Shown here one piece after another: positions 30,863 through 46,463 of a stretch of DNA of 64,000 nucleotides. Below the pieces are notes generated by a model. It saw only the letters and a program-made list of their open reading frames with translations, ran no database searches and had not been told where the DNA came from. Position 1 is the first letter of the stretch. Each line of letters begins with the position of its first letter. The stretch is from NCBI RefSeq assembly GCF_014696825.1, contig NZ_JACJQU010000001.1, positions 558,001 through 622,000 on the forward strand, given 5' to 3'. The translations under genes were made by a program, and so were the position numbers. The DNA is from Anabaena sphaerica FACHB-251 (lineage in GTDB: Bacteria > Cyanobacteriota > Cyanobacteriia > Cyanobacteriales > Nostocaceae).

Positions 30863-31362
30863 GTTTCCATTAATTCCACTTCCTATAAAGGAAGCGACAA
30901 TTAGCTGAGTCGATGCCTAACGAACACTTCGCACAATTCCCGTTTCCATTAATTCCACTTCCTATAAAGGAAGCGACTCAGAACCATTAAACTACACCGA
31001 TTGGTTGGACGTTACGGGTTTCCATTAATTCCACTTCCTATAAAGGAAGCGACCTGAACTTTTTCTTCAACCGTGAGGCTATACTTGGTGCGTTTCCATT
31101 AATTCCGCTCCCTATAAAGGAAGCGACCCTATTGATGGGCAAATTGACAACTTTACAGAGTTATTGTTTTCATTAATTCCACTTCCCATAAAGGAAGCGA
31201 CTTCAATCGCCGTACACAATACATTTACCCGCATCTTCTACATCAAGCCGTTTCCATTAATTCCACTTCCCATAAAGGAAGCGACTGGCATTGGGTTTTC
31301 AATACAACAAACTTCGAGGATCTACCGTTTCCATTAATTCCACTTCCTATAAAGGAAGCGAC
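30863..31362 (-). CRISPR. CRISPR array 1: 7 repeats, 6 spacers
   Basis: Seven copies of a 36-bp repeat start at 30863, 30942, 31018, 31092, 31166, 31250 and 31327; spacers are 38-48 bp. In transcribed orientation (minus strand) the repeat begins GTCGCTTCC and ends ATTAATGGAAAC, with a short CTTCC/GGAAG stem. Orientation is set by the leader on the right (31363 onward), which is homologous to the leader of array 2. Repeats at 31092 (two changes), 31166 (two) and 31250 (one) are degenerate, while the leader-distal one at 30863 matches the consensus. Confidence 0.98.
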
Positions 31363-31600
31363 CCCTCTAGTATAAACCCTTGCTGTGCCTAGTGTCTAGA
31401 GGCGATTTCCGATAGCGAAGCGTGGCGTTAGCCATAGGTCACTGAAAACAGGACAATTTTCAGCCAAAAACCACCAACTAAAACGCCTGAAACCCTTACA
31501 CAGAGACAGACCGAAGTTCACAACGAAAGAATCAGCATTTGAGTCTTGTTGGGCTGACCCTCGGAAAAAATCAAAACTAATACAAAAACCTGTCATATCC
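31363..31600 (-). promoter_or_regulatory. CRISPR leader 1 with promoter
   Basis: This leader can be aligned by eye with the one right of array 2; shared blocks include AGTATAAACCC, CATTTTCAGCC-like, TTACACAG and CAACGAAA.AATCAGCATTT. On the minus strand it carries TAGACA (31398-31393), an 18-bp spacer and TATACT (31374-31369), placing the transcription start at about the first base of the array. A short dispersed repeat (31411-31436) is inserted relative to leader 2. Confidence 0.8.
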
Positions 31601-31637
31601 TCCTGACTCCTGACTCCTGAATTCTTACATTTGTAGA

Positions 31638-31916
31638 TTAGTTAATTGAATTTGCTAATTGTTGCAATTTTTCCTCCAATTGATTTTCTATAGGTTGTTC
31701 TGGGGAAAGTGCAAATAACTTTAATGCTTTCAAAAATGGTGTTTTCACGTTTTCTACATAAGCTTTATGAGCTTCATTAATTGACGGTTCAAGTTGATTA
31801 TTTGGGTGTTTAGTTTGATCAGTTGAGTGTTCAGGTTGATTATTTGAGTGTTGATCTTGATTAGTTGATTTATTAATTGTAGTCGAAAATCTGGCGATAT
31901 CATGATCATGAGACAA
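31638..31916 (-). CDS. Small Asn/Gln/His-rich repeat protein at the end of the cmr operon
   Basis: A 92-residue polar protein. Residues about 17-44 are two tandem copies of a 14-residue unit (STNQDQHSNNQPEH, then STDQTKHPNNQLEP), followed by a helical C-terminus (AHKAYVENVKTPFLKALKLF). The only usable start in frame is TTG and no clear ribosome binding site is seen, so the 5' end is uncertain. It lies 29 bp after the CARF-HEPN gene on the same strand, between the effector operon and array 1. I do not recognise a family; the conserved-looking C-terminal helix suggests a real gene, but it may be a decayed fragment. Confidence 0.45.
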   Translation of the reverse strand: MSHDHDIARFSTTINKSTNQDQHSNNQPEHSTDQTKHPNNQLEPSINEAHKAYVENVKTPFLKALKLFALSPEQPIENQLEEKLQQLANSIN

Positions 31917-31945
31917 AGAGATTATGAGTAAATTGTTAATTAATG

Positions 31946-33343
31946 CTAGGTTTGCAATTCATAATTATTAATTGCTGTGTCTAGTTCTTGATGGACACAT
32001 GACATGAGACTGGCTTCTTCTAATGAGTTAAATTCTTGTTTAGTTATAAAATCTAAGCATCTTCTAACTCTCTTTTGCCATTCTTTGTTACTATTTGTAT
32101 TCCATGCTTGAAATACTTCCTCTTGTTGTAATCCTAGCAAATTATGAAATAAATTATTTCTTTGTTTGGATGTGTAGTCTTTAAAAATTCTGATATCTTC
32201 ACTCAATTTCCAATCAGATAAAACTGTTTCAATTAAATCATGGATACCTTTGTGATCATATTTACTTGCCTCCATATCTCTCAACAAACCTTCAACAGCA
32301 CGGAAACTATGAAACAAAGCTTCTAAATTATTACCTTGCCTCAGTCTTATAACCGCTAAATAAGCAGCTTCATAACTTGTCCACCACCTTTTTTTAGTCT
32401 GTTCCTCAGCATTTTTATCTATTTTACTTCTGGCTTTTCCAAAATCATTAAAATTAGCATTATTCCATTGAATAGCCATTGCTAATAAATCTTTAATTTT
32501 TTGTTCTTGAACATTTAATAATTCTTGTTTTTGCTTCCAAACTTCAGTTAATATTTTATCAACACCAGAGTAATCATATCGTTTTAATAATTCCTTTGCT
32601 TCTTGCAATTTAATACCTTTCAAGTAATTGGAACTGGGAATAGAGATAGGATTTCCTGGTTCGTACTCATTACTTACTAAAAATTGTACTTGCTTTTCAA
32701 ATTTTGCTAAACTGCTGAACTGAACTGCTGAAGAAATAGCCGGAGTACCTGCTTGATGACTGACAAAAATCTTTGTATATTCTCTAATTTCTAAGTCAGC
32801 CATTTCTTGGTAAAATAAATTGTTAACCAAGATTAAGCATTTATCCCAATTATCAAGACCTTCTTCTTTAGAATTAGGCTTTAATTCTAAATATTTAATA
32901 TCGTGATTTGATTTCAGTCGAGGGAACTTTTTCTCAAAATATTTCTCTAGAATTGGCTTGAGTGTATAAGTATCTTGCCAATAAGGACATTTATTGTTTG
33001 TTTTATCTTCATCAGAAAAAACATTTTCCTGATTAGTTAAAATCACAATTATTTTATCAGGTTGATTTTTACCAGTTAACCCATTAATAAAAGTATCTAA
33101 CAAAGGAAAGTGTAAATCCTTAAAAATTTCATCATCTAATTGAGGACTATAAACCATACCCATAACCCTTGCAGGAACAGTATAAGGTTCATTAGCAGGA
33201 GCATTTTTTAATCTATATGGTTCAAACAAATGATCAGAGAATTCGCTTCTAACTTCTCTATAAAGTTTCTGCCATTTATTAGAGTTATAATTAGGTTTTA
33301 GCTGCACATCACTATTACCAGTTGTTACAATCCAAATACTCAT
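31946..33343 (-). CDS. CARF-HEPN ribonuclease (Csm6/Csx1-like ancillary effector)
   Basis: A 465-residue protein. The N-terminal CARF-like Rossmann domain (about 1-240) starts SIWIVTTGNSDVQL and contains the ligand-loop-like HQAGTPAISSAVQF (196-209). The C-terminal HEPN domain holds the catalytic R-x4-H motif RNNLFH (R395, H400). In type III systems cyclic oligoadenylate made by Cas10 binds the CARF domain and activates HEPN RNase. GGGGAG precedes its ATG, and it starts just 3 bp after the double-RAMP stop codon, clearly in the cmr operon. Assignment to Csm6 or Csx1 proper is not possible by eye. Confidence 0.82.
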   Translation of the reverse strand: MSIWIVTTGNSDVQLKPNYNSNKWQKLYREVRSEFSDHLFEPYRLKNAPANEPYTVPARVMGMVYSPQLDDEIFKDLHFPLLDTFINGLTGKNQPDKIIVILTNQENVFSDEDKTNNKCPYWQDTYTLKPILEKYFEKKFPRLKSNHDIKYLELKPNSKEEGLDNWDKCLILVNNLFYQEMADLEIREYTKIFVSHQAGTPAISSAVQFSSLAKFEKQVQFLVSNEYEPGNPISIPSSNYLKGIKLQEAKELLKRYDYSGVDKILTEVWKQKQELLNVQEQKIKDLLAMAIQWNNANFNDFGKARSKIDKNAEEQTKKRWWTSYEAAYLAVIRLRQGNNLEALFHSFRAVEGLLRDMEASKYDHKGIHDLIETVLSDWKLSEDIRIFKDYTSKQRNNLFHNLLGLQQEEVFQAWNTNSNKEWQKRVRRCLDFITKQEFNSLEEASLMSCVHQELDTAINNYELQT

Positions 33344-33346
33344 TGT

Positions 33347-35083
33347 TTATACTCCCCAAAATTTAGTAAAATCACTTGTTGGTAAAAATGTTAAAAATTC
33401 TTGTGTTCTTTCATCTCTTGTATCTGGAAAGATAGTTAATAACTCTATATACTTTTTCTGATAAATCATCTTCCCATCACTGATTTTGTAATGTGGATAC
33501 ATTCTATGGTAAATTCTGCCAATACTCCCCATTTTACCCGTCAATTTAGAACCTTTAATTGATTGATTTCCTTTGTAATTCCCATGAAACCATCTCACAG
33601 CTAAACTATCATCTTCACCTAAAGCAATTCGCCCCCAAACTTGCACTTTTTCAGGATGAAAAGATTCACGCCATGAACTGTTTTTATTTGTTGGTGTATG
33701 ACCTTTAAAAATCAACCAATTTTTAACAGCCTTGTGAACACCATCAATAATATTAGTGATGTGATTCAGGTTATTAACAGGAAAATAGTATTGATTTGAT
33801 TCCTTGGTAAATTGCCAATGACAGCCTATCATTGGTTTATTTCCATTTTCCAAATATTCGGGAAAAAATATTCTATGATCAATTCTGCGGGATGATTTAC
33901 CAAAACCACCTATCAGCATGGAAAACTTGATCAATTGGAAGGCTAAAATTTTCAATTCTTTTTTATATTCATCTGTAAAATTTTTCATACAGAGAATATT
34001 TAAAACGCCTTTATTTAATTCATAAATTGGCATTTTCAGATTATTGTATTTAAATTCATCCATTTCTAAATCAACAGGATTAAATGCAATACCTAAATCT
34101 CCAACTATTGCACCTTTATTATTATCGGCAAAACCTCCCCAAAGTTCCTTAGTTAATTCTTCTGCTGTTTTCTCATCAGTCAATGCACTAAATAACCGCA
34201 ATGTATGACCACGTAAAGCGGCTTTAAACATATTCGGACGAAATTCAGGTGTTTTATCTGTATCTACTAATTGTGATGCTAAACCTTGTCCTTTTAAATT
34301 AACAGTAAGTAGTTTAGTTTCTGGGTGTTTAACAGGTTGACCATACCCCGCACTTACCCTAGAACCAATACCCCTTTCTATGGCTTTATCCCAAATATTC
34401 CAAATAATTTCCCATTCACTATCATCTAATTCAATATTGCTAGAAATACCAAAAACTAAAGTCGGTTGATAGAGAGATATTTGCAAAAAAGCCGAGTGAG
34501 AATCATTATTTTTAACTTGCCAATCTTGTTGAGGATGAACCACATCAATTAATGGTTGTTCACACCAACTATCATCTTCAGGATATGCACCATGAAAACG
34601 CAAAATACCCGGTTTAGTTTCGTTATTTGTAAAACCTCTCTCCAAACCTCTCTCCTGCAAGGAGAGAGGCTTTAAATTCTCCCCATTTGTTCCTTCTCCT
34701 CTTAGGAGAGGGTTAGGGAGAGGTAGGGAAGGGGGTTGGGGGGTTAGGTTCTTACCTCCACAATATTTCATAGCCTGTTCAGGGTTACAACTTCTTAAAA
34801 AAGCACCCTTCATACTCGCACCAGGATAATAGGGAAAGCCATTAGCAGCTATGACAGGTCTGATGATACTGTCATCTTGTCCACTGTTAGAAATAAAACG
34901 CCAAGTGATTTTATATGGTTTGGTTTTGACATTGTGGTTAAATTTAGGGGAATTTGTAGCAGTAGCTTCTACCCATTCATCAACCCATCTTTCTGACTGT
35001 TCTCGTTCTTCAATATATTGAACTTGTCCCCTACCGCTAATTGGTGCTTGAAACATTAACGGCACTTCATTACTATTCGGCAT
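33347..35083 (-). CDS. Double-RAMP protein: Cmr6-like N-half, Cmr1-like C-half
   Basis: A 578-residue RAMP-superfamily subunit of the type III-B complex. The N-terminal half is Cmr6-like: PVIAANGFPYYPGASMKGAF and ERGIGSRVSAGYGQ glycine-rich loops. The C-terminal half (about 280-578) has Cmr1-like features: NMFKAALRGHTLRLFSAL, ELWGGF, and IGGFGKSSRRIDHR. There is no separate cmr1 gene, and the length is about twice a usual Cmr6, so a Cmr6-Cmr1 fusion is the best reading. Residues 112-151 are encoded by an inserted GC-rich dispersed repeat (34631-34750). AGGAGA precedes the ATG, which overlaps cmr5 by 11 bp. Confidence 0.75.
   Translation of the reverse strand: MPNSNEVPLMFQAPISGRGQVQYIEEREQSERWVDEWVEATATNSPKFNHNVKTKPYKITWRFISNSGQDDSIIRPVIAANGFPYYPGASMKGAFLRSCNPEQAMKYCGGKNLTPQPPSLPLPNPLLRGEGTNGENLKPLSLQERGLERGFTNNETKPGILRFHGAYPEDDSWCEQPLIDVVHPQQDWQVKNNDSHSAFLQISLYQPTLVFGISSNIELDDSEWEIIWNIWDKAIERGIGSRVSAGYGQPVKHPETKLLTVNLKGQGLASQLVDTDKTPEFRPNMFKAALRGHTLRLFSALTDEKTAEELTKELWGGFADNNKGAIVGDLGIAFNPVDLEMDEFKYNNLKMPIYELNKGVLNILCMKNFTDEYKKELKILAFQLIKFSMLIGGFGKSSRRIDHRIFFPEYLENGNKPMIGCHWQFTKESNQYYFPVNNLNHITNIIDGVHKAVKNWLIFKGHTPTNKNSSWRESFHPEKVQVWGRIALGEDDSLAVRWFHGNYKGNQSIKGSKLTGKMGSIGRIYHRMYPHYKISDGKMIYQKKYIELLTIFPDTRDERTQEFLTFLPTSDFTKFWGV
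34631..34750. repeat. In-frame dispersed repeat inside the double-RAMP gene
   Basis: A 120-bp stretch beginning AACCTCTCTCCAAACCTCTC-like and ending GGGGTTAGGTT-like. It matches the GC-rich core of the MITEs at 45389-45527 and 61321-61459, but lacks their AGTAAGT ends. Its length keeps the reading frame and it adds about 40 residues (NLTPQPPSLPLPNPLL onward), Pro/Leu/Gly-rich and unlike the surrounding RAMP fold. Confidence 0.8.
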
Positions 35084-35498
35084 CGTTATCTCCTGGTTTT
35101 TTATAACGTTGAGTCCACCAAACCAAACTGTCGCAAAATTGAGTAAGAACTGCTAAACAAATGCGCTGGTCTTCAATGGGAAATTCCCATAATTTAGCTG
35201 CATAATCTTGTACTTGTTTGGTATTATTACCATCAACTTTTTCTTCAGGAAGTTTAATTCCTGCTTTTTTCATAATTTCGACAAAAGTTGTCCAAGTATC
35301 ACGCCAATATTCACCTTTTGCGCGTTCTTTAGAGTCGGTTTTACCTAACAGTCGTAAATGTTCACCCCAAAAACGTTCTAAACCATAAGCTACAGTAGTT
35401 CGCATTTTATGAGATTGACCAATTACGCCTTTTTTATCCCGATGTTTGAGGACTAACTTTTGTGCTTCTTGGTCTAAATTGTAAGATTTCCAAGTCAT
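35073..35498 (-). CDS. cmr5: CRISPR-associated protein Cmr5
   Basis: A 141-residue all-helical small subunit of the Cmr complex. SHKMRTTVAYGLERFWGEHL and the Trp-rich C-terminus DSLVWWTQRYKK fit the Cmr5 family, as do its size and its position between cmr4 and the cmr6-type gene. Cmr5 forms the minor filament along the target RNA. AAAGGAG precedes the ATG. The stop codon overlaps the start of the double-RAMP gene. Confidence 0.88.
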   Translation of the reverse strand: MTWKSYNLDQEAQKLVLKHRDKKGVIGQSHKMRTTVAYGLERFWGEHLRLLGKTDSKERAKGEYWRDTWTTFVEIMKKAGIKLPEEKVDGNNTKQVQDYAAKLWEFPIEDQRICLAVLTQFCDSLVWWTQRYKKPGDNDAE

Positions 35499-35502
35499 AT
35501 AT

Positions 35503-36354
35503 TTACACTCCTTTGAAGGTTAATTCACAATGACCTAAACCGATAGATTCTAACCCACCTAAATAAATATCTGCGGTTTCACCACTTTTTAAAGGTTGCC
35601 ATTTTTTACCAGATTTATCATCTCTAATAGCCACAGGAAATACTAAAATTGTGCCTTCTGGTAATGCTTCAGTGTTGAAAAATCCACCACCATCAACTAC
35701 TTTCTGATCTGGTTTTAATCGCACACGACTTTGGCGATATAATGCCATATCATGAATCATGCCAATATCACTATCATCGACTATTACAGATGGTTGTTGT
35801 TTTTGGTCAGGAAACCAAGGTGATAAATCTTTGGTTTTGTTAATTTCTAAGAAACCTAAATTAAAGAAGATGGTTTTTTTACCTCCTGTTGCTTGTTTAG
35901 CTACAAGATTAGTTGAACCTGTATATTTATCAGGAATTTGTATCTCTTTGAGAAGTTTAGTTTTACCATCTACTTGAACTTGAACACTATCACCAGCAAT
36001 TCTTTGATAACGTTGCAATAAACGGGGACAACTTACCCAAACTATTGGTTGTCCAGGACAAAAAACAGGAATCCAAATAATAGAAGCATATTCAAATTTA
36101 ACAATGGATTCATTATTATTTACTTCTGCTGCACCTGCTTCATTACCATACCAATAATTTGCGTCTGCTTCTCCGTTTTCTATCAAGCGCATTTCTGAAC
36201 GCAAACGACCACGAATAGAACTACCAGGAATGATCCCAGTTTGGGTAAATTGGTCACGGAAAATCAGGTTTAAATTACCACTTTCTTCTCCTGCGGTTGC
36301 ACCAACATGGAGAGGTGCTAAGGTTTCAATAATGCCATAAGCTTTTTTGTACAT
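35503..36354 (-). CDS. cmr4: CRISPR-associated RAMP protein Cmr4
   Basis: A 283-residue Cas7-like backbone subunit. The N-terminal GIIETLAPLHVGATAGEESGN and GIIPGSSIRGRLRSEM are diagnostic of Cmr4, and the C-terminus has the glycine-rich YLGGLESIGLGHCEL. Cmr4 copies line the crRNA and cut the target RNA at 6-nt intervals; the catalytic aspartate could be the one in NLIFRDQFTQ (inference). AAGGAG spans the end of cmr3 and lies about 9 nt before the ATG, so translation is coupled. Confidence 0.93.
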   Translation of the reverse strand: MYKKAYGIIETLAPLHVGATAGEESGNLNLIFRDQFTQTGIIPGSSIRGRLRSEMRLIENGEADANYWYGNEAGAAEVNNNESIVKFEYASIIWIPVFCPGQPIVWVSCPRLLQRYQRIAGDSVQVQVDGKTKLLKEIQIPDKYTGSTNLVAKQATGGKKTIFFNLGFLEINKTKDLSPWFPDQKQQPSVIVDDSDIGMIHDMALYRQSRVRLKPDQKVVDGGGFFNTEALPEGTILVFPVAIRDDKSGKKWQPLKSGETADIYLGGLESIGLGHCELTFKGV

Positions 36355-36355
36355 T

Positions 36356-37363
36356 TTAGTTAACTCCTTGAATTTCTACTGGTAAACACAAACCACAACC
36401 AACTTTTTTGAGACTGTAACCTTCATTGGGAAACCATTTTTCGTCCCATTCCCACCAAGGTTTGTTAATGGGTTCTTTGAGAACGTAAACACTACCCGCA
36501 GGAACTGCATAACGTCCTCTTCCTAATGTTCCTTGAGAACGGTAACGATAGGGAACTGGTTTATCAGTTAACATCTGCATAGTTTCAGGAAAACTATTAT
36601 CTTGAGGTTGACGGTGAGAAATACGGTTAGAACCCCAAATTCCTGGTGTAATTAAAGCAAATTTATCTTTTATTGGCTGACGTAAAAGCTCTAAAATTGG
36701 ACTGTTATCAGGTAGTTCAAAACTGTTGATTTCTACAATATGATTTTCACCACCAAATCTATACCAACCATTGGGTAAAGCCTGAGTAGATAAATAAACT
36801 AAGCAATATTCCGAGTCTAACTGTACAGAATATTCTAGAAACAATCCACCTTTTGTATCATCCTCATTTTTCAGAGTACATCTTTCATCATTTTTTAAGT
36901 GAGGATGCAATACAGATACAAAATTCCAAGGTACTTTTTCCGCATACCCATTACTACGAATTCTTTCTGCTGAATAATTCCAGTAATTAATTGTTTGCCA
37001 CTGATAATCTGGTGTTAATTCTGAGTTTTCACAGTGCCATTTTTTGTTTTTAAATTCCCATTCACTAGATTCATCTTCAGCTATAATTTTAGTCCAAGGT
37101 ATTGGTACATAAAAATATTCTGGATTATTGGTTTTGCTCCAAAATGGACCTGCAACAGATAAATCATTACTTAATTGTTTTTTATCCCATAATTTTTGAA
37201 CTTGGTTAACACTAAAGAATAATCCAGATAAAGTAGCTGCTTCAGGAGGAAATTTAGCACCAGAACGACCAACTAAATTTTCAGGTGATAAAAATGCTCC
37301 AGCACTACCATACATTAAACCTAAAGGATTGATACAGATTAGATATTTGAACATAAATGCCAT
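36356..37363 (-). CDS. cmr3: CRISPR-associated protein Cmr3
   Basis: A 335-residue Cas5-like subunit that caps the crRNA 5' tag. The segment INPLGLMYGSAGAFLSPENL with FPPEAATLSGLFF is Cmr3-like, as is PVPYRYRSQGTLGRGRYAVP. Two starts are possible: the ATG at 37363, or the ATG three codons later (37354), which has AGGA at better spacing. Either overlaps the end of cas10 by 16-25 bp, so translation is coupled. Confidence 0.9.
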   Translation of the reverse strand: MAFMFKYLICINPLGLMYGSAGAFLSPENLVGRSGAKFPPEAATLSGLFFSVNQVQKLWDKKQLSNDLSVAGPFWSKTNNPEYFYVPIPWTKIIAEDESSEWEFKNKKWHCENSELTPDYQWQTINYWNYSAERIRSNGYAEKVPWNFVSVLHPHLKNDERCTLKNEDDTKGGLFLEYSVQLDSEYCLVYLSTQALPNGWYRFGGENHIVEINSFELPDNSPILELLRQPIKDKFALITPGIWGSNRISHRQPQDNSFPETMQMLTDKPVPYRYRSQGTLGRGRYAVPAGSVYVLKEPINKPWWEWDEKWFPNEGYSLKKVGCGLCLPVEIQGVN

Positions 37364-38925
37364 CCTATATGAATTAAACCATCAATCCATTTCATGAGTT
37401 CTAGATTATCTGATTTACCAACTATTTTTTCCTGTTGGTTTTCTAAATATTCTTTCTGTTTCTCAAAGTAAATATTAAAGAGTTCTAATGCTATCCGTTC
37501 ATCAACATGATACCCTTTTGCATTCAAATTTATTGCATGACGAGCTTTTAAAGTTGCTAAATCACTATAAACATGACCCCAGTTAGGAAAATCTTCCTTC
37601 TTTCTTCCCTTACATTCCCACTCATAAAATGTTTTACCATCCCTATCTCGATACTTCATCAAAATCCCCAAATAATCCCAAGGACAAGTCCACTGGACAT
37701 ATTGACCACTATTAAAAACCACCCGAATAGTAACTCTATCTCTTCCCAAAGATTTCGCTACCTTTTCCGCTTCCCGACAATGTTGTAAAACATCTCGCTG
37801 AGGTACACTACCCGCGACCCAAACAAAACCCACACTAACATTAATACCCTGTTTATGTTCCTTCCATTTATCTTTTAAAGTCCGTAACCATTCATAAGCT
37901 GTAAATGCTGGAATTGGTTTTTTAGAATCTTTACTATAAATAATTCCTAAAAAATCATCACCACCAGCATAAACAATTCTCCCTAAATTTTCAGGAAACT
38001 CTTGATCAAAATCTTTACCCCAATTCCTAATTGCATCACTAAATTGGTGAATTTCTTCATCACCATTGTCTTTTTTAGCTAACTCCTTCAAATGGTCTCC
38101 AACTTTATCACCATCTCCCATAAACCACCCTGTCCATTGTCCAGGAATGTTTTTACTAGGTTCTGGTTTTCTTTGAATGTCTTTAAAACTCTCTTCTAGT
38201 GTTTCCATCCCTAATTTTTGCCCTATTCCATACCAGGTAACTAACCGTTTTACTAATTCAGGAATACTCAGCTTTTCATTAGGTGCAATATATTTACCTT
38301 CTGGTTCTTTATCATCTGGACAATTATCTAATTTTCGCGCTAATTTTGTATAAAAATCCTTGACTTTATCATCTTCTAATCCATAATTTAAGGTCTTAGG
38401 ATTACGATAATCAGAACCCAAACCAGGAAAAGCAATTCCATCAGTACCCGTCAAACTAGAACTTTCACCAATCCAATTTACAGCACTCCAATCACGAGAT
38501 AATTTATTAGTTTCTAAATCATCCATCGCTGCTTTGATGCTGTCACCACATCCTTGAAATACTTCCCAAGTATGACAACCCCAAAGCGTCCATTCTCTTT
38601 CCCATTCATAATGAAATTCTGGGAGTTTTTTTTGTATCCATTCTCGACAAACTTTTAACATCTCCTTCCATGCAGAAAGAATGATTTTTTCAGCTTCTTC
38701 TTTACTCATTTCTCCTTTAATTAAAATGCGGTTAGGCATTCCTTTTTGGACGCTAGGAAGCGCAGGAGAAATCAGTTTTAAATCCTTATGATTATCAACA
38801 TAACTAACTATTTGTTGACTCAAATAAGAAAGAATTAAAGATGCACCATACAAGTCTCGAAGCTTGCGGGATTTTTCAATAAACCCTTGAACGGGAGCAA
38901 AGGTGATAGCAGTATATTTATCCAC
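37339..38925 (-). CDS. cmr2: Cas10/Cmr2, HD-less, with intact GGDD cyclase motif
   Basis: A 528-residue large subunit of the type III-B complex. It begins directly at the first palm region, TFAPVQGFIEKSRKLRDLYGASL (6-28), so the N-terminal HD nuclease domain found in many Cas10 proteins is absent. The second palm contains YAGGDDFLGI with GGDD at 321-324, the site of cyclic oligoadenylate synthesis; GWFMGDGDKVGDHL (267-280) is the other palm motif. It should therefore signal through second messengers to the CARF-HEPN RNase and not cut DNA. The start is GTG, with AAGGAG 11 nt upstream. First gene of the operon. Confidence 0.92.
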   Translation of the reverse strand: MDKYTAITFAPVQGFIEKSRKLRDLYGASLILSYLSQQIVSYVDNHKDLKLISPALPSVQKGMPNRILIKGEMSKEEAEKIILSAWKEMLKVCREWIQKKLPEFHYEWEREWTLWGCHTWEVFQGCGDSIKAAMDDLETNKLSRDWSAVNWIGESSSLTGTDGIAFPGLGSDYRNPKTLNYGLEDDKVKDFYTKLARKLDNCPDDKEPEGKYIAPNEKLSIPELVKRLVTWYGIGQKLGMETLEESFKDIQRKPEPSKNIPGQWTGWFMGDGDKVGDHLKELAKKDNGDEEIHQFSDAIRNWGKDFDQEFPENLGRIVYAGGDDFLGIIYSKDSKKPIPAFTAYEWLRTLKDKWKEHKQGINVSVGFVWVAGSVPQRDVLQHCREAEKVAKSLGRDRVTIRVVFNSGQYVQWTCPWDYLGILMKYRDRDGKTFYEWECKGRKKEDFPNWGHVYSDLATLKARHAINLNAKGYHVDERIALELFNIYFEKQKEYLENQQEKIVGKSDNLELMKWIDGLIHIGWHLCSNI

Positions 38926-39316
38926 TAACTATGTATCTCCTTGTTATGCTTAATTTTCAACATACACGTTATAAGTTATACAGTGTTCAAAAAAAGATAC
39001 TTTGTAATATTTAGTGACTAAAAGCAACAGGTTTTGTCATAAATGACTAAGTTTTATCTACTAAACATCAGGTTTTATTTACATATCAAACGATATATCA
39101 ACAAACTTAGCTGTATTTTGCAATCTGTAAAGTTTGAAAGATTTATGTCTTGTTTTTATCTTAGCGGTAAAAAACTGGCTGTAAACTGCTACTCATGCGA
39201 ACGACGAAATTTACTGACCAGATATGGTAAAAAAATTCGTGATTCGCTTGAAAACACTAGACTTTCACCCCAGTGAACAAGAGAAAATGTAAGACAAATC
39301 TTGAGTATGAAAAAAA
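38926..39316. other. Divergent promoter region, cmr operon / P-loop-WYL gene
   Basis: About 390 bp of AT-rich sequence between divergently read cas10 and the kinase-WYL gene. Both promoters must lie here, which makes it a plausible binding site for the WYL regulator. I see no clear operator palindrome. A 77-codon ORF at 39043 looks spurious. Confidence 0.5.
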
Positions 39317-41410
39317 ATGTCCAACCCTCCCATCTGTCATTTCCTCATCGGTGTCCCTGGTAGCGGAAAATCAACTTTTGCTGCTAATCTGGCTAAATTA
39401 GGCAATTATCGCGTTATCTCTACAGACGCTATTCGACAGCAACTATATAATGATGCGACTATTCAAGGTGAATGGACAGAAATAGAAGCGAAAGTCATCT
39501 CTGCGGTTGTGACAGCTATTACTGAAGGCGTTAGCGTGATTTATGATGCTACTAACGCCAAGCGTGTATGGAGACTGGATTTATTACAAAAGCTGAATTT
39601 AGCTGTGAGTACCCCTGTATTGTGGATGGGGTGGTATTTACAAACACCTATTGAAATCTGTAAGCACTGGAATCAACAACGCTCTCGTCAAGTTCCAGAT
39701 GTGATAATTGATAAAATGTCCGCATCTCTACAAGATTTTCCCCCCATTGCAGCGGAAGGATTTGCAATTATTAAAGAAGTTGATGTCACTGCGTCAAATT
39801 TCGATTTCCAACAAATTTATACTCACATTCACCAGCTTGATAAAACTCTTATCAATCGCAGTAATCGCAATAGTCACATGACTTTTCATGCTTATAGTAA
39901 ATTGCTGGATTTTGAACGTTTAATTTATCTCATTTCCTTGATTATCAACTATCCAGGAATTGGTAACTTAACAGAAAATCAGCCTGGTTTATTAGTAAAT
40001 ATTTTCGGTAATGTTCCTGATTTTCCAACTGCTTTATCAGAAATTACTGGTTTTATGATGCAATTGCATGGTAAAATATATGCAGATCAAAAAGCTATCG
40101 CTAATGATTTACAGTGGTTACAAAAAAACGCTCTAATTGGCGTTAATACAATTTCTTCAACACCCCATACTCCTATTGATGCTGGTGATTATGTTGAGCA
40201 TTATTCTAGTAATTTAGTAACTCATCCTTATTCAGATTTACCAGCATTTCAGCGATTAATACACACAATCAGATTAATTTTACATCATCCTTTTTTAGTA
40301 AACACTGGAAAAGGAAGTTTAAAAACTTTAGTTTCTGTCATGCAAGAACAGGGAATAATTGATGTCAATAATAGTAATATATTCAAGACCGTTTTAAATT
40401 CTGTCCGTAAAGATATCGAAAAAATTCTCAAACCCTATAAAATTTTACCTGATTTTTCTATGCGCGATGGTTATTTTGCGGGAACTGCGATTTTATCAAC
40501 ATTAGAATTAACTCAAGTCTTTCAAGTGCTTCAATCTCAAGCACAAAGTCTTAATGACCCCATAGCATTAGAGATTTATGAAAAGTTCGCTAATCGCATG
40601 GAAAAAAGTAAATTAGGTGTGAGTGAAGTTTATCCGGTGAGAGCGATCGCAAATCGTAGTATGATTGACCCAGAGTATTTACCAGCGGAGTCCTTAGCGA
40701 GAAATTTACAACGAGTTGAAGAAGCTATTATCAAGGGACAACTTTTAGAATTAAATCGTTTTCCCGGTGGTGGTCAATTTATTTTAGATGAAGAAAGTTT
40801 CTTTTTAGCTTTCCCCCTCCAAATAGTTTTTTTTAACTATGCTTGGTATTTAGGTTACGAACTTGTTGAAGGGAAAGATGACGGTTTACTGAGATTTGAA
40901 AGATTAGATAGATTATTTATTGGTAAACCCCAAACAAAAACCCGTTCTCAACTAGAACAGGAAGAAACTTTAAAGAAATTACAAAAACTATCCGCAGCTA
41001 GTGGAGGAATTTTTTTAGGATATAATCCCCAAGACCAAAAACAATTTCTGGATGGAAATAAAAAAGCACGTTCTCAGGTCTGCGTTACTGTGGAACTGTG
41101 GTTTAGTGATGGAATGTTTCGGTTTGTAGCTGAAGGAACTAAACGCTTTCCATCACAACAAATGAAAATGTCTTTACCAGTTACTGGCAATAAATTAAAT
41201 TTACCAAAATCTATTTTTTCTCTCAAATCAACTGGAGAGAAAAATTTTCCTAATCGCTTTCAAGTCATCCTCCCGCAATGGTGTTTAGATGACATAGAAT
41301 TGTTACGCTGGATTCTTGGTTTTAAAGCAGGTGTAAAGGTAGTAAAACCACAATTATTAGTTGATAAATTTAAACAAATTGGTGAGGATATTGTCAATAT
41401 TTATAGGTAA
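39317..41410 (+). CDS. P-loop kinase (AAA_33-like) fused to WYL-domain module
   Basis: A 697-residue protein not matching any named Cas family I know. The N-terminus (1-180) is a P-loop kinase of polynucleotide-kinase type: Walker A GVPGSGKST (12-20), then ISTDAIRQQLYND and VIYDATNAKR. The long central helical region (190-470) has no motif I recognise. The C-terminal part (about 480-690) contains NYAWYLGYELV and LLRFERLDRLFIG, the WYL-domain hallmark, then a segment like the WYL C-terminal extension (FSDGMFRFVAEGTKRF). WYL domains sense nucleotide-like ligands and regulate several CRISPR loci. Divergent from cas10 and next to array 2, it is a likely regulator or accessory factor. Confidence 0.75.
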   Translation: MSNPPICHFLIGVPGSGKSTFAANLAKLGNYRVISTDAIRQQLYNDATIQGEWTEIEAKVISAVVTAITEGVSVIYDATNAKRVWRLDLLQKLNLAVSTPVLWMGWYLQTPIEICKHWNQQRSRQVPDVIIDKMSASLQDFPPIAAEGFAIIKEVDVTASNFDFQQIYTHIHQLDKTLINRSNRNSHMTFHAYSKLLDFERLIYLISLIINYPGIGNLTENQPGLLVNIFGNVPDFPTALSEITGFMMQLHGKIYADQKAIANDLQWLQKNALIGVNTISSTPHTPIDAGDYVEHYSSNLVTHPYSDLPAFQRLIHTIRLILHHPFLVNTGKGSLKTLVSVMQEQGIIDVNNSNIFKTVLNSVRKDIEKILKPYKILPDFSMRDGYFAGTAILSTLELTQVFQVLQSQAQSLNDPIALEIYEKFANRMEKSKLGVSEVYPVRAIANRSMIDPEYLPAESLARNLQRVEEAIIKGQLLELNRFPGGGQFILDEESFFLAFPLQIVFFNYAWYLGYELVEGKDDGLLRFERLDRLFIGKPQTKTRSQLEQEETLKKLQKLSAASGGIFLGYNPQDQKQFLDGNKKARSQVCVTVELWFSDGMFRFVAEGTKRFPSQQMKMSLPVTGNKLNLPKSIFSLKSTGEKNFPNRFQVILPQWCLDDIELLRWILGFKAGVKVVKPQLLVDKFKQIGEDIVNIYR

Positions 41411-41424
41411 TATAAATACCCTAT

Positions 41425-41489
41425 AGATCCCCGACTTCTTAGATAAATCTTCTGAAAAACAGATGATTACACAGAGAAGTCGGGGATCT
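41425..41489. repeat. GATCCCCGACTTCT hairpin, copy 1
   Basis: Perfect 15-bp arms AGATCCCCGACTTCT (41425-41439) and AGAAGTCGGGGATCT (41475-41489). It lies just after the kinase-WYL stop codon. A 45-bp part of it is tandemly duplicated at about 41510-41553. Confidence 0.85.
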
Positions 41490-41578
41490 CAATCAGTTTC
41501 CACTAAATATCCCCGACTTCTTAGATAAATATTCTAAACAACAGATGATTACACGCTACTTGATGATTAGTTTGGCAC

Positions 41579-41644
41579 AGATCCCCGACTTCTATGATTA
41601 ATTATCTGTTTAATAGACAGATTTTTTGAAGAAGTCGGGGATCT
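41579..41644. repeat. GATCCCCGACTTCT hairpin, copy 2
   Basis: The same perfect 15-bp arms occur at 41579-41593 and 41630-41644, 38 bp before array 2. On the plus strand it could stop transcription from the kinase-WYL gene. On the minus strand it could mark the end of the array 2 transcript. Confidence 0.85.
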
Positions 41645-41682
41645 TAATCTTTATTGATGCAATATCCCCAATTTATTTTAAT

Positions 41683-43669
41683 GTTTCCATTAATTCCACT
41701 TCCTATAAAGGAAGCGACAAAACAATTGAGAATCTCTACTTTCAGAAGGATAGGTTTCCATTAATTCCACTTCCTATAAAGGAAGCGACACGTTCTGACT
41801 TGTGCGCCAACTCACAGCAAGGGGATGATAGGTTTCCATTAATTCCACTTCCTATAAAGGAAGCGACTGTCTGTTTAAAGACGCAGTGGTAATAGGAGCT
41901 GGTGTTAATGCCGTTTCCATTAATTCCACTTCCTATAAAGGAAGCGACTGGAACAGCAGCCATATATAGCCTACGTTGACGGGGTATATCCGTTTCCATT
42001 AATTCCACTTCCTATAAAGGAAGCGACAGTGCTTGCGGAGATATGATTGGTCCGTTCTCAGGATGCTTGTTTCCATTAATTCCACTTCCTATAAAGGAAG
42101 CGACCAGTGGGAGATGAAAGCAGCCGCAATAGAGGCTATTAGAAGATGTTTCCATTAATTCCACTTCCTATAAAGGAAGCGACGTTTATTAAGAAAGAGG
42201 AGGTATGTATGACTAAACCAGTCATGTTTCCATTAATTCCACTTCCTATAAAGGAAGCGACGCAGATGATATCAATGAACTCAAGCAGAAGTTTCGTCTA
42301 GGTTTCCATTAATTCCACTTCCTATAAAGGAAGCGACCTCATGAGAATGAAGCGGTGGAAGAATCAGAAAAGGTTTCCATTAATTCCACTTCCTATAAAG
42401 GAAGCGACCTTCTTTTAACTCATGCTGCTATCGGAAGAATCAAGTTTCCATTAATTCCACTTCCTATAAAGGAAGCGACGTTGTACACTGTGGAGTTAGA
42501 CACTAACCACCTGACCTGCAAGTTTCCATTAATTCCACTTCCTATAAAGGAAGCGACAACAGGCGATCGCAGATTGTCCTATCAGCAAACTAGAATCGTT
42601 TCCATTAATTCCACTTCCTATAAAGGAAGCGACGTATTGGAAGCCCTCAAGGCTGAACCAATGCTCCATATTGTTTCCATTAATTCCACTTCCTATAAAG
42701 GAAGCGACTCAGAGAACTTATCAGCTTTCCTGAACTAGACTTTATGCCGTTTCCATTAATTCCACTTCCTATAAAGGAAGCGACTACGAGTAACACAACC
42801 TAAAGTTTCTCTAGGTTTAAGTTTCCATTAATTCCACTTCCTATAAAGGAAGCGACACAGCTGGGATAACTTGGGGTATTTCAACCACTCGTTTCCATTA
42901 ATTCCACTTCCTATAAAGGAAGCGACTCATAGCTGCAAGGATTTGTAGTTCAGGTTTAGCTTGTTTCCATTAATTCCACTTCCTATAAAGGAAGCGACAA
43001 AGTACGTCACAGAAATGGGAAGAGTTAACCCACATGTCGTTTCCATTAATTCCACTTCCTATAAAGGAAGCGACTAGAAGATGAGGCACAATGGACCAAA
43101 GTCTTGAGTGTTTCCATTAATTCCACTTCCTATAAAGGAAGCGACAGTGAAATAAGAGAACTTGTTGTATCAACAGATAGATATGTTTCCATTAATTCCA
43201 CTTCCTATAAAGGAAGCGACAGTTAACACCTAAACAACTAGATTCATATAGTAAGTTGTTTCCATTAATTCCACTTCCTATAAAGGAAGCGACAACGCAC
43301 TATTTGATAGTGGTGCTACTATTCCTGTACTGTTTCCATTAATTCCACTTCCTATAAAGGAAGCGACTATCAAACCGCCGATCTGAACTTGAACTACAAC
43401 AACGTTTCCATTAATTCCACTTCCTATAAAGGAAGCGACATCTCTCTAGTTGAGTACAATGAGGACAGTGTAGTAATGTTTCCATTAATTCCACTTCCTA
43501 TAAAGGAAGCGACAAAGTGTGTGCTAGTAAATCCATCAAGCTGTCAAAGATAATTCAAGTTTCCATTAATTCCACTTCCTATAAAGGAAGCGACGCTACT
43601 GCATTCACTGTGGCTACTGGCGGATTAGGAGTAGTTTCCATTAATTCCACTTCCTATAAAGGAAGCGAC
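41683..43669 (-). CRISPR. CRISPR array 2: 27 repeats, 26 spacers
   Basis: Twenty-seven near-identical copies of the same 36-bp repeat as array 1, first at 41683-41718 and last at 43634-43669; spacers are 34-45 bp, in the range of type III systems. Read on the minus strand, because the leader homologous to that of array 1 lies on the right (43670 onward). In that orientation the repeat ends ATTAATGGAAAC, giving a crRNA 5' tag of the usual type ending GAAAC-like. The uniform repeats suggest a more recently active array than array 1. Confidence 0.99.
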
Positions 43670-43890
43670 CCCTCATAGTATAAACCCAGACAGCGACTAA
43701 TGTCTAGATGCCATTTGCGACGGGGTATGAACACAAGACCATTTTCAGCCCAAAGCCACACAGCCAAAAGCCGTAAAATCCTTACACAGCAACACATCGG
43801 CCGGGTCAACGAAACAATCAGCATTTCCACCCCCCAGCGTACCCGGCCGCAAAAAAATCAACACCAATAAAAAAAATCGTCATTCGCATG
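43670..43890 (-). promoter_or_regulatory. CRISPR leader 2 with promoter
   Basis: Homologous to leader 1. On the minus strand TAGACA (43706-43701), an 18-bp spacer and TATACT (43682-43677) put transcription initiation about 8 nt before the first repeat. The identical hexamers and spacing in both leaders support a shared functional promoter. It lies between array 2 and the divergently read csx18-like gene. Confidence 0.8.
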
Positions 43891-43961
43891 AAACCACTTG
43901 TATAAACTTCCTATACCGATTAACTTAAAAAAACAGCATCAACTCAAATCCCAAGTAAATT

Positions 43962-44234
43962 ATGTATATTTCCCATCGTGCAGCCTTAGTGCGAAACTTA
44001 TCAGTTGCCTTACTCAATGGTGGAATTACACTCATCATTTTGTTAATCGCACCATTAGGACTAGCAGCAGTAATTATTAACACACTTTTAGTCACTCTCG
44101 CTAGTTTTATAAATGCCACAGCAGGAGATACAATTGTCCGTTTCTTGCAACCAACTCAAATCAAAACAATGATAGCAGAAATCATCTCACAACAGTCACT
44201 AATAGTTAATAATTCACAACATCATCAAGACTAA
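43962..44234 (+). CDS. csx18: Csx18-like small membrane protein
   Basis: A 90-residue protein with two adjacent hydrophobic helices (about 12-33 and 35-52, GGITLIILLIAPLGLAAVI and NTLLVTLASFINA) and a polar C-terminal tail. Sequence and position, beside cas1 and a leader in a cyanobacterial type III-B locus, match my recollection of the Csx18 family, whose function is unknown. A membrane component next to the adaptation gene is unusual. The family name is from memory and should be confirmed. Confidence 0.65.
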   Translation: MYISHRAALVRNLSVALLNGGITLIILLIAPLGLAAVIINTLLVTLASFINATAGDTIVRFLQPTQIKTMIAEIISQQSLIVNNSQHHQD

Positions 44235-44271
44235 ATTTATATTATGGATTGCTAAATGAGGCGGAAAAATA

Positions 44272-44334
44272 AGATCCCCGTTTTTTTTAACTCTTGCCAA
44301 TAAATTATTAATTGATGCCAGAAATCGGGGATCT
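44272..44334. repeat. GATCCCCG hairpin between csx18-like gene and cas1
   Basis: AGATCCCCG (44272-44280) pairs with CGGGGATCT (44326-44334); a T run follows the left arm. Another member of the hairpin family found at several gene ends in this window. Confidence 0.7.
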
Positions 44335-44368
44335 GAGTAGATAAAAAATCAATCATAAAATAACCAAT

Positions 44369-45361
44369 ATGCGAACACTTTACGTCTCACGTCAAGGTTG
44401 TTATATCTCCCTCAAAGCGGAAACATTAATAGTTAAACAAGGAGAAACAATTCACGGCGAAATTCAACTACCATTACTAGAACAAATACTAATCTTTGGT
44501 AAATCACAAATCACAACCCAAGCAATTCGTAGCTGTCTTTGGCGAGATATACCCATCGCTTATTTATCAAGAATGGGATATTGTTATGGTCGATTAATGC
44601 CCATAGAAAGAGGATATCGGCGCTTATCTCGCTATCAACAAGAATTAACCACAATTGATAAAGTCATAGTAGCCAGAAAAATCATTCAAGCTAAATTAAA
44701 AAACAGTCGCACATTTTTACAACGTCAACAACGGCGTAACCCTTCCACCACGGCTGATATTAGCATTAAAAGTTTAGAAGTATTAATCCAAAAAGCCGGA
44801 GAAGCTGAAACAATAGAACGTTTAATGGGCTTAGAAGGTGCTGGTGCTGCTCAATATTTTTCAGCATTTGGTGAATGTTTAAATAATCCTAATTTTATAT
44901 TTTTAGCCCGCAGTCGTCGTCCTCCAGGCAACCCTGTTAATGCTATGCTGAGTTTTGGTTATCAAATTCTCTGGAATCACTTATTAACATTAATTGAACT
45001 CCAAGGATTAGACCCCTATTATGCTTGTTTACATCAAGGAACAGAACGCCATGCAGCTTTAGCTTCTGACTTAATTGAAGAATTTAGAACACCCATAATT
45101 GATTCTTTAGTATTGTGGTTAGTTAATACTAAAATTATGGACGCTAACAACGATTTTGAATATCATGATAGTGGTTGTTATTTAAATAATGCAGGTAGAC
45201 CAAAATATATTAAATATTTCCTCCAAAGATTAGAGGAAGAAGTCCAAAACTCCCAAGGAGAAAAACAACCCCGTTGGGATTTAATGACTCAACAAATTAA
45301 AGCCTTTAAAGATTTTGTTTATCAACCTAGTCAAATATACAAACCTTATCAAATTCGCTAA
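44369..45361 (+). CDS. cas1: CRISPR-associated endonuclease Cas1
   Basis: A 330-residue integrase for new spacers. The beta-rich N-terminal domain (MRTLYVSRQGCYISLK) leads to the helical catalytic domain, with the conserved Glu in LMGLEGAGAAQYFSAF, the His in CLHQGTERHAALASDLIEEFR, and the acidic DLIEEFR motif. It looks complete. Its TAA stop codon shares the A of the original cas2 ATG (TAATG), showing the ancestral cas1-cas2 coupling. No reverse-transcriptase fusion. Confidence 0.96.
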   Translation: MRTLYVSRQGCYISLKAETLIVKQGETIHGEIQLPLLEQILIFGKSQITTQAIRSCLWRDIPIAYLSRMGYCYGRLMPIERGYRRLSRYQQELTTIDKVIVARKIIQAKLKNSRTFLQRQQRRNPSTTADISIKSLEVLIQKAGEAETIERLMGLEGAGAAQYFSAFGECLNNPNFIFLARSRRPPGNPVNAMLSFGYQILWNHLLTLIELQGLDPYYACLHQGTERHAALASDLIEEFRTPIIDSLVLWLVNTKIMDANNDFEYHDSGCYLNNAGRPKYIKYFLQRLEEEVQNSQGEKQPRWDLMTQQIKAFKDFVYQPSQIYKPYQIR

Positions 45362-45780
45362 TGTTATTTTATGTTATTGTCTATGATAAGTAAGTGGGCG
45401 TTAAAAAATATAATATAAACCTAACCCCCCAGCCCCCTTCCCTACTAGGGAAGGGGGAGTCAAAGCCTCTCCCCTGGTAGGGGAGAGGTTTGGAGAGAGG
45501 TTTTATATTTAATTGTGCCAAGTTACTTATACCCTGTGATAAAAGGCGTAAAAAAGTAGCTGATTTATTAGAAGGATATGGTCAACGAGTCCAATATTCA
45601 GTTTTTGAATGTATTCTTAACCAAAATAAATATAAAGAACTGAAAAAACGACTGCATCAACAAGTAAATCTTACAGAAGATAGCGTCAGATTTTATCCAT
45701 TAACCAAACATACACTCAACCAAATAGACACCTGGGGACAAACACCCGTTACAGAAATTCCCAACTCAACTATAATTTAA
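45361..45780 (+). pseudogene. cas2: cas2, interrupted by a MITE after codon 9
   Basis: The original gene starts at the ATG overlapping the cas1 stop codon and reads MLFYVIVYD, the first beta strand of Cas2. A 139-bp MITE then intervenes. The frame resumes at 45529 with IPCDKRRKKVADLLEGYG and runs to the normal end. Reading into the element from the native start meets a stop at once (AAG TAA). A TTG inside the element (45490) is in frame with the rest and could give a 96-residue chimaera lacking the first strand and its conserved Asp, so true Cas2 function is probably lost. Confidence 0.9.
45389..45527. mobile_element. 139-bp MITE inserted in cas2
   Basis: It is flanked by TA on both sides (45387-45388 and 45528-45529). 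Ends are AGTAAGTGGGCG and, inverted, AGTAACTTGGCA. The GC-rich core contains GGGAAGGGGG and GGTTTGGAGAGAGG motifs. Removing it with one TA restores an intact cas2 frame (GAT ATA CCC). It differs from the inverted copy at 61321-61459 at only three positions that I could count. The TA duplication fits an IS630/Tc1-type transposase acting in trans. Confidence 0.9.
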
Positions 45781-45781
45781 T

Positions 45782-45815
45782 ATCCCCGACTTTTTAGAGA
45801 AGTTGGGATTTTGTT
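45782..45815 (+). terminator. Terminator-like hairpin after cas2
   Basis: ATCCCCGACTT pairs imperfectly with AAGTTGGGAT (G:T pairs) and TTTTG/TTTT follows. It lies directly after the cas2 stop codon and is a member of the GATCCCCGACTTCT family. Confidence 0.55.
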
Positions 45816-45899
45816 TTATGATGAATACCACAATCGGCTATTACAAGTAATTTATGATTGCTATAATTATTCAAACTGAAGTAATCTAACAAACCCAAA

Positions 45900-46463
45900 A
45901 TGACCCATCTTTTAGAAACAGAACGCTTAATTATTCGCAATTGGATACCGCAACAAGATGCAGAACAAGTATTTGCAATTTATAATGACCCAGAAGTAAT
46001 ATACTTTCTTGGTAGTGCTGCACGTCCTCCCAGTATTGAAGTACAACGTCAGCATTTAATTGATAGTTTAGAAGAATCAGAACAACTCAAAAATGGTACA
46101 GGTTCTTGGGCAATTGTTGAAAAAGATACCAAAAAAATCGCAGGTACTATCATGCTTTCCCAACTACCAGATAAAAATCGCATACCCACTCAAGAAATTG
46201 AAGTAGGATGGCATTTAAAACGTTCGGATTGGGGTAAAGGATATGCAACCGAAGCTGGACGCGCTATCCTTGAATACGGCTTTAATCAGTTGCATTTACC
46301 AGTTATTTATGCTGTAGTTAAACCAGGGCATCTTGCTTCAATCCATGTTACTGAAAGATTGCAAATGAAACCATTAGGATTAACAAGCAATTACTACGGT
46401 ATTGAACTGCTTTTATTTCAACAAACTCCACCTGATAAAATCAAGGGAATAGGTGATAGGTGA
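45900..46463 (+). CDS. GNAT family N-acetyltransferase (RimJ/RimL type)
   Basis: A 187-residue GNAT enzyme. LETERLIIRNWIPQQDAEQVF is the typical RimJ-like opening, and GWHLKRSDWGKGYATEAGRA contains the acetyl-CoA pyrophosphate-binding QxxGxG-like loop (here DWGKGYA). The substrate is unknown. The last residues (KGIGDR) are encoded by a tandem repeat (GGGAATA/GGTGATA), so the C-terminus has probably been extended by repeat growth. Confidence 0.85.
   Translation: MTHLLETERLIIRNWIPQQDAEQVFAIYNDPEVIYFLGSAARPPSIEVQRQHLIDSLEESEQLKNGTGSWAIVEKDTKKIAGTIMLSQLPDKNRIPTQEIEVGWHLKRSDWGKGYATEAGRAILEYGFNQLHLPVIYAVVKPGHLASIHVTERLQMKPLGLTSNYYGIELLLFQQTPPDKIKGIGDR

Follow-up and report, generated by a model that had tools for sequence, protein, structure and literature searches.

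A predicted polynucleotide kinase-WYL fusion protein as the probable regulator of a cyanobacterial type III-B CRISPR-Cas locus

Results

Organization of the III-B locus

The window (the whole stretch of DNA that was analysed, 64,000 nucleotides from Anabaena sphaerica FACHB-251) contains an ORF of 697 codons at 39317..41410 on the plus strand, which we call the kinase-WYL gene after the Pfam and PADLOC matches of its product. The ORF check and a homologue search showed that the gene is full length and conserved across many cyanobacteria, while no relatives were found in the viral contigs searched. The gene lies head to head with the operon cas10b-cmr3-cmr4-cmr5-cmr6-csx1 and is followed by CRISPR array 2, csx18, cas1, and cas2, in agreement with a preliminary description that had placed it between the effector operon and array 2.

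The genes of the effector operon, all on the minus strand, were assigned by profile matches: cas10b (cmr2, 37339..38925, 528 aa), cmr3 (36356..37363), cmr4 (35503..36354), cmr5 (35073..35498), a long cmr6 (33347..35083, 578 aa), and csx1 (31946..33343), which encodes a CARF-HEPN protein with an RNNLFH motif. Since Cas10b is short and, according to the motif check, keeps the GGDD motif without an HD dipeptide, it likely acts through a second messenger and the HEPN nuclease Csx1. The operon has no separate cmr1, and the 578-aa Cmr6 may combine two RAMP units. Based on repeat layout, array 1 (30863..31362) holds 7 repeats, degenerate in its middle, and array 2 (41683..43669) holds 27 repeats; both arrays use one and the same 36-nt repeat. 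On the plus strand, csx18 (43962..44234) and cas1 (44369..45361) were found by profile match; cas2 (45490..45780) is an ORF with a TTG start whose product resembles a Cas2 cluster by eye. An Rfam scan of positions 31000-46000 returned nothing, and at the locus we recognized no phosphatase, RNA ligase, or Hen1 gene and no other DNA-binding gene; RtcB is encoded in the genome. The same genome carries a second RAMP-gene locus, adjoined by tandem TIGR03985 WYL proteins of 470 and 475 aa (G000:C10, L115:7176-10500).

Domain architecture of the kinase-WYL protein

The N-terminal residues 1-176 (39317..39844, +) form a P-loop kinase of the polynucleotide-kinase type, as the preliminary description had proposed from PNK-like motifs. 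Pfam AAA_33 matched aa 9-139 (6.7e-20), and with a sequence profile of 59 homologues the best solved relative was the Pnkp kinase of Clostridium thermocellum (4.5e-20). Pnkp was also a fold match of the predicted domain (Foldseek 1.1e-7; VIA Z 18.4 over 162 residues, 2.6 Å). K18, D37, R40, Q50, D77, R83, R86, and N119 do not vary among the 56 homologues having a kinase domain, and R122 and R124 are kept in 55 of them; the Walker lysine, the charged residues of the catalytic site, the DATN motif, and the lid arginines are thus retained in nearly all 56, down to about 30% identity. D37, R40, R122, and R124 presumably have the roles of their Pnkp counterparts, to which they were assigned by alignment and from general knowledge. 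With all inspected catalytic residues kept, the kinase is predicted to be catalytically intact.

At the C-terminus, a WYL Sm-like barrel (residues about 475-543; 40739..40945, +) was delimited by motif, model, and fold search, and a WYL C-terminal extension (WCX; residues about 588-697; 41078..41407, +) by Pfam, model, and a profile match to PafC. The barrel region carries the motifs AWYLGYE and FERLDRLF, the latter containing R526, R529, and R532. PADLOC matched a WYL profile to aa 456-692 (5.4e-16). Among the 59 homologues, Pfam recognized WCX in 54 and WYL in 8; in the window protein alone WCX scored 18.9 bits, under the curated cut-off of 23.9. Because the WYL core was poorly modelled in the full-length structure, residues 186-697 were folded alone, with about 377-459 still at low confidence. 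The top fold matches of this part were WYL regulators alone, namely PafBC (3.5e-7), followed by DriD, CapW, and BrxR, and the C-domain of DriD matched with Z 12.1 (VIA). The structure prediction that the preliminary description had suggested therefore gave a Pnkp-type kinase fold and a WYL-regulator fold, and its WYL-like C-terminus was confirmed. Binding of ssDNA by PafBC requires two WYL arginines in each subunit (PMC11804915); by motif, their counterparts are R526/R529/R532. The TIGR03985 model, which matches two other WYL genes of the same genome, did not match the 697-aa protein, and the PADLOC search found no Csx3 ring-nuclease domain in it. Nor does the protein have a CARF domain; its sole CARF+WYL profile match covers aa 360-691, which is the part from the second middle domain to WYL.

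The roughly 300 residues between kinase and WYL, previously described as unknown sequence, turned out to hold two mutually homologous domains, wHTH1 (residues 188-290; 39878..40186, +) and wHTH2 (residues 300-395; 40214..40501, +; hhalign probability 97%, E 8e-11). Cyanobacteria widely encode plain WYL proteins of some 400 aa, and both domains are homologous to the N-terminus of these proteins (E 5.9e-15 for wHTH2); over the whole C-terminal half the hhalign comparison reached E 2.7e-49. The sequence pattern and predicted helices of both domains resemble winged helices, and wHTH1 had weak IclR winged-helix matches in the VIA fold search (Z 4.2-4.4). As the Pfam search of the protein gave no HTH match and the model of wHTH2 is only moderately confident, we call both domains winged-helix-like. 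With these two domains the protein likely has, as far as profiles and models indicate, its own DNA-binding part. The predicted domain order is kinase, wHTH-like, wHTH-like, WYL, WCX; in architecture the protein thus joins a kinase to a WYL transcription factor like PafBC, DriD, CapW, and BrxR.

Association with III-B loci and the regulator position

In a collection with one genome per species, all nine homologues with enough flanking sequence on the cas10 side (L005-L012 and L014) are divergent from cas10b; in L016 an unrelated long gene lies upstream of the homologue. A broader neighbourhood check, counted by hand from locus tables with association defined as within about 15 kb, covered 388 genomes of the class and yielded 60 kinase+WYL loci. 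Of these, 28 adjoin III-B genes, as do 10 of the 11 kinase-WYL genes in the window's own family, so the preliminary concern that homologues might lie mostly far from CRISPR loci was not borne out. The gene orders at III-B loci differ (divergent from cas10, downstream of csx1, or codirectional upstream of cas10, L081), as would be expected from a link in function rather than from common descent alone. A quick tree requires 11 changes of the III-B label, vs. 19 when shuffled; the association was therefore gained or lost several times.

Strong as it is, the pairing is not exclusive. About half of the kinase-WYL genes lie away from III-B genes, including eleven in genomes of the cyanobacterial family f16 that gave no match to Cas10b or RAMP proteins, and so the protein has uses beyond CRISPR. 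In L058, L059, and L060 the kinase-WYL gene is the last of an operon that also encodes a retron-type reverse transcriptase (RT) and a small protein with an R-x4-H motif. This protein is called HEPN-like by motif only, since it matched none of the family models; an alignment of the five small proteins was not convincing. The operon (L058:7464-11540, L059, L060) could represent an undescribed retron type. Two further retron-type RTs (L067, L068) are next to WYL relatives of 459 and 463 aa that have neither the kinase nor the first winged-helix domain. Because these two relatives lack both parts, wHTH2 and WYL together seem able to stand alone; with element-like sites nearby (see below), they also indicate that the kinase is dispensable in part of the family. 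Another relative without the kinase half was seen at L017:276-1925, immediately preceded by sequence that resembles the final part of a small transposase gene.

We found 92 cas10b loci in 84 genomes. The head-to-head partner of cas10b is a kinase-WYL gene in at least 7 and a plain WYL gene in at least 24 of them; both counts are lower bounds, as the WYL search at cas10b loci covered 80 genomes. The plain WYL genes in this position encode 384-432 aa and lie 190-463 bp from cas10b. Because plain WYL genes of about 400 aa fill the same divergent slot at at least 24 loci, the kinase-fused protein, judged by gene position and homology, occupies the regulator's place beside cas10b.

A 19-nt element private to the locus

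In an alignment of seven loci, the intergenic region between cas10b and the kinase-WYL gene contains two near-invariant blocks. Both are copies of one asymmetric 19-nt element, AATTTCGTSRTTCGCWTGA, one pointing at each divergent gene, and a third copy precedes csx18. Intergenic alignment and a genome scan located the copy toward the kinase-WYL gene at 39233..39251 (+), 65 nt from its start, and the copy toward cas10b at 39193..39211 (-), 267 nt from its start; the genome scan placed the third at 43873..43891 (+), between array 2 and csx18, 70 nt from csx18 and pointing at csx18-cas1-cas2. In the genome of 6.19 Mb only these three sites, all at the III-B locus, have at most one mismatch. With two mismatches nine more sites appear, compared with eight for a reversed control pattern.

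The element recurs in the loci of relatives. In L008, L009, L011, and L012 an insertion parts cas10b from the regulator gene, and one copy stays with each gene; in nearly all of the relatives' loci the regulator-side copy is 61-68 nt from the start codon. It is followed after 6 nt by TAGAYT or TAGACA (in the window TAGACT, 39258-39263, +, by alignment), and the csx18-side copy mostly by a TAGCAT-like sequence, both without a recognizable -35 box. On the cas10b side, a promoter-like TTTACA-N16-TAAGAT (39158..39185, -) begins 7 nt after the element; it is aligned in relatives, while its consensus match alone is at chance rate. A simple promoter scan gave no more matches than shuffled sequences, so the promoter assignment rests on alignment. 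We also considered the 39193 and 39233 sites as one inverted-repeat operator (19-20-19 nt). This was rejected, as insertions split the sites in the four loci named above and the csx18 copy is single, in the same orientation toward its gene.

Among the cas10b loci with a divergent partner, 5 of the 7 that have a kinase-WYL gene carry the exact core of the element, whereas it is absent from all 24 that have a plain WYL gene in the same slot. A Fisher test of exact element against gene presence gave P = 1e-4; this test is circular in part, since some of the tested loci had served to define the element. The fair test is the one outside the window's family, in which 300-nt promoters of kinase-WYL, cas10, csx1, or retron RT genes were scanned at a threshold of 16 of 19 positions: 6 sites were found vs. 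0.13 expected (P = 6e-9). Many distant kinase-WYL genes have a weak element or none in front. In genome G387 the element is present at a cas10b locus that lies 1.3 Mb from the nearest kinase-WYL gene; it may be acted on in trans there, or be a relic.

Several element-like sites were noted in other contexts. Upstream of the retron RT they occur at 247-600 nt in L058 and L060, and near the kinase-less relatives of L067 and L068 there are sites with 16-18 of 19 matches, including one 62 nt upstream of a 196-aa gene. In L089 (G360) a stop shortens cas10b to 186 aa and no cmr3-cmr5 genes were detected, yet the kinase-WYL gene and both elements are intact.

Discussion

The preliminary description had considered the protein as a regulator or an effector of the CRISPR locus. 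Its WYL architecture and the private element at three gene sets strengthen the former, and no support was found for an effector. We are highly confident that the kinase-WYL protein is a locus regulator and nearly as confident in the prediction that it binds the 19-nt element. As a whole, including the mechanism proposed below, an autoregulating regulator dedicated to the III-B locus is the explanation that we consider probable. The protein would act as a dimeric DNA-binding WYL regulator, and by binding the element before cas10b-cmr, its own gene, and csx18-cas1 it would couple interference, adaptation, and its own level. Regarding the direction of control, the element is placed where an activator could work, as at PafBC-type promoters, but at two of the three promoters a repressor acting by occlusion would fit equally well; for this reason we lean only slightly toward an activator.

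As in PafBC, DriD, and CapW, the ligand sensed by the WYL-WCX part may be a nucleic acid or a nucleotide. The WYL domains of PafBC and DriD bind ssDNA, which switches the factor (PMC11804915, PMC12340889). As PafBC is activated by ssDNA and not by ssRNA (PMC11804915), an RNA ligand is not the default for the WYL part. The kinase, in turn, would most likely phosphorylate the 5'-OH end of a nucleic-acid fragment. RNA 5'-OH ends are a plausible substrate by analogy, because the kinase is of the Pnkp type with the inspected catalytic residues kept and HEPN nucleases make such ends; the HEPN RNase Csm6 leaves 5'-OH and 2',3'-cyclic phosphate ends (PMC4748810). The natural candidate would be RNA cut by Csx1 of the adjoining operon, and phosphorylation might create, alter, or abolish the ligand that the WYL part recognizes. 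That the kinase acts on 5'-OH ends of fragments and thereby tunes sensing is our tentative suggestion. We thus infer, as the most economical model, a regulator that reads nucleic-acid fragments and a kinase by which these would be prepared or cleared; each step that connects the kinase with the ligand is conjectural. HEPN or HEPN-like genes partner the kinase-WYL gene in both III-B and retron contexts. A bolder idea, which we regard as doubtful, is a one-protein damage gauge, in which the kinase marks 5'-OH ends made by HEPN proteins, WYL recognizes the fragments so marked, and transcription of the immune locus is reset by the very same polypeptide, this module serving both III-B and a retron-type system with an HEPN-like partner. 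A transcription factor switched by RNA ends is known in RtcR (PMC7790460).

The kinase could instead be a mere ATP sensor or scaffold on an ordinary WYL repressor or activator. Plain WYL proteins seem to do the same job in the same slot at no fewer than 24 cas10b loci, and the two relatives beside retrons do without a kinase; a bare scaffold, however, would not need the catalytic residues that nearly all 56 homologues have kept, and we consider this reading rather unlikely. A repair function, in which the kinase mends RNA broken by Csx1 after infection and WYL only turns on synthesis, would suit the closest relatives of the kinase, which are the RNA-repair kinases Pnkp, Pnkp1, and T4 Pnkp, as well as the 5'-OH ends of HEPN products (PMC4748810) and the Pnkp1-Rnl-Hen1 pathway that counters ribotoxins (PMC4411300). 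The absence of a recognized phosphatase, ligase, or Hen1 gene at the locus speaks against such end healing, as does the RtcB of the genome. RtcB joins 5'-OH ends, and 5'-phosphorylation would block this joining. We hold the repair function to be unlikely.

Equally improbable in our view is a kinase acting on a small molecule whose phosphorylated product is the WYL ligand. Nothing that we found points to cyclic oligoadenylate itself as the substrate, and its intact ring has no free 5'-OH; the kinase would act on a linear oligoadenylate from its breakdown, with a free 5'-OH, or on another nucleotide; the switch would then be tied to Cas10 signalling. The GGDD motif of Cas10b, the CARF protein Csx1, and the small-molecule kinases within the P-loop kinase superfamily are in line with this, but the best sequence and fold matches are nucleic-acid or tRNA kinases rather than metabolite kinases, and kinase-WYL genes also occur beside retrons and alone, without Cas10. 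Finally, the element might belong to another regulator, with the kinase-WYL protein an effector that merely adjoins the locus. The distant kinase-WYL gene of G387 would fit; yet the element is private to the locus within the genome, stands in front of the kinase-WYL gene itself, and tracks this gene rather than cas10b, and the locus holds no other recognized DNA-binding gene. We judge this very unlikely and retain the dedicated regulator as the preferred explanation.

Compared with known systems, the protein shares with PafBC, DriD, CapW, and BrxR a wHTH-like part, a WYL barrel with conserved arginines, WCX, and the same fold (Foldseek, VIA); several of these guard defence or DNA-damage genes. 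They have roughly 270-330 aa, whereas the kinase-WYL protein, with 697 aa, adds the N-terminal kinase and a second winged-helix-like domain. It also resembles the TIGR03985 WYL regulators adjoining cyanobacterial CRISPR, to which Sll7009, as we assume, belongs, but lacks a TIGR03985 match. Sll7009 represses a I-D locus (PMC4012209). By profile (4.5e-20), fold (Z 18.4), and catalytic residues the kinase is akin to bacterial and T4 Pnkp; unlike these 5'-OH kinases, it is fused to a transcription factor and has no phosphatase or ligase domain. RtcR likewise unites sensing and control in one protein, reading RNA fragments and regulating how an operon close by is transcribed (PMC7790460), though its CARF domain and AAA+ sigma-54 activator are unrelated to the domains described here. 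Csx3-AAA proteins (Slr7080-type), encoded next to cyanobacterial III-B, combine a kinase-like domain with a sensor or ring nuclease (PMC7371418, PMC9676260); in contrast, the kinase-WYL protein has no matched Csx3 domain. WYL-enzyme fusions are known in general, and the main-text list of these contains no kinase (PMC4012209). Our literature search found no described WYL protein with a polynucleotide kinase, while an earlier mention in a supplementary table is possible. WYL regulators of CRISPR and WYL-enzyme fusions were thus known, and what appears new is the predicted polynucleotide-kinase-WYL fusion at a III-B locus.

Little is known about the switching of type III CRISPR loci, and a large survey of such loci in 2024 deliberately set regulators aside (PMC11229360). 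Here a predicted circuit with a regulator, three target promoters, and a 19-nt element could be named from sequence alone. If the proposed mechanism holds, the fusion of an enzyme that modifies nucleic-acid ends with a transcription factor that senses nucleic acids would let immune genes respond, by a new route, to how an immune attack has ended.

Stand-alone kinases of about 166-263 aa that resemble the kinase half of the protein are common in cyanobacteria (G000:C2:8191-8610, L004; L108-L113); within the same genome their identity to this half is 37-40%. At L075:2599-3660, within an analysed stretch without III-B genes, an NYN-domain protein (a possible RNase) is encoded directly upstream of a kinase-WYL gene.
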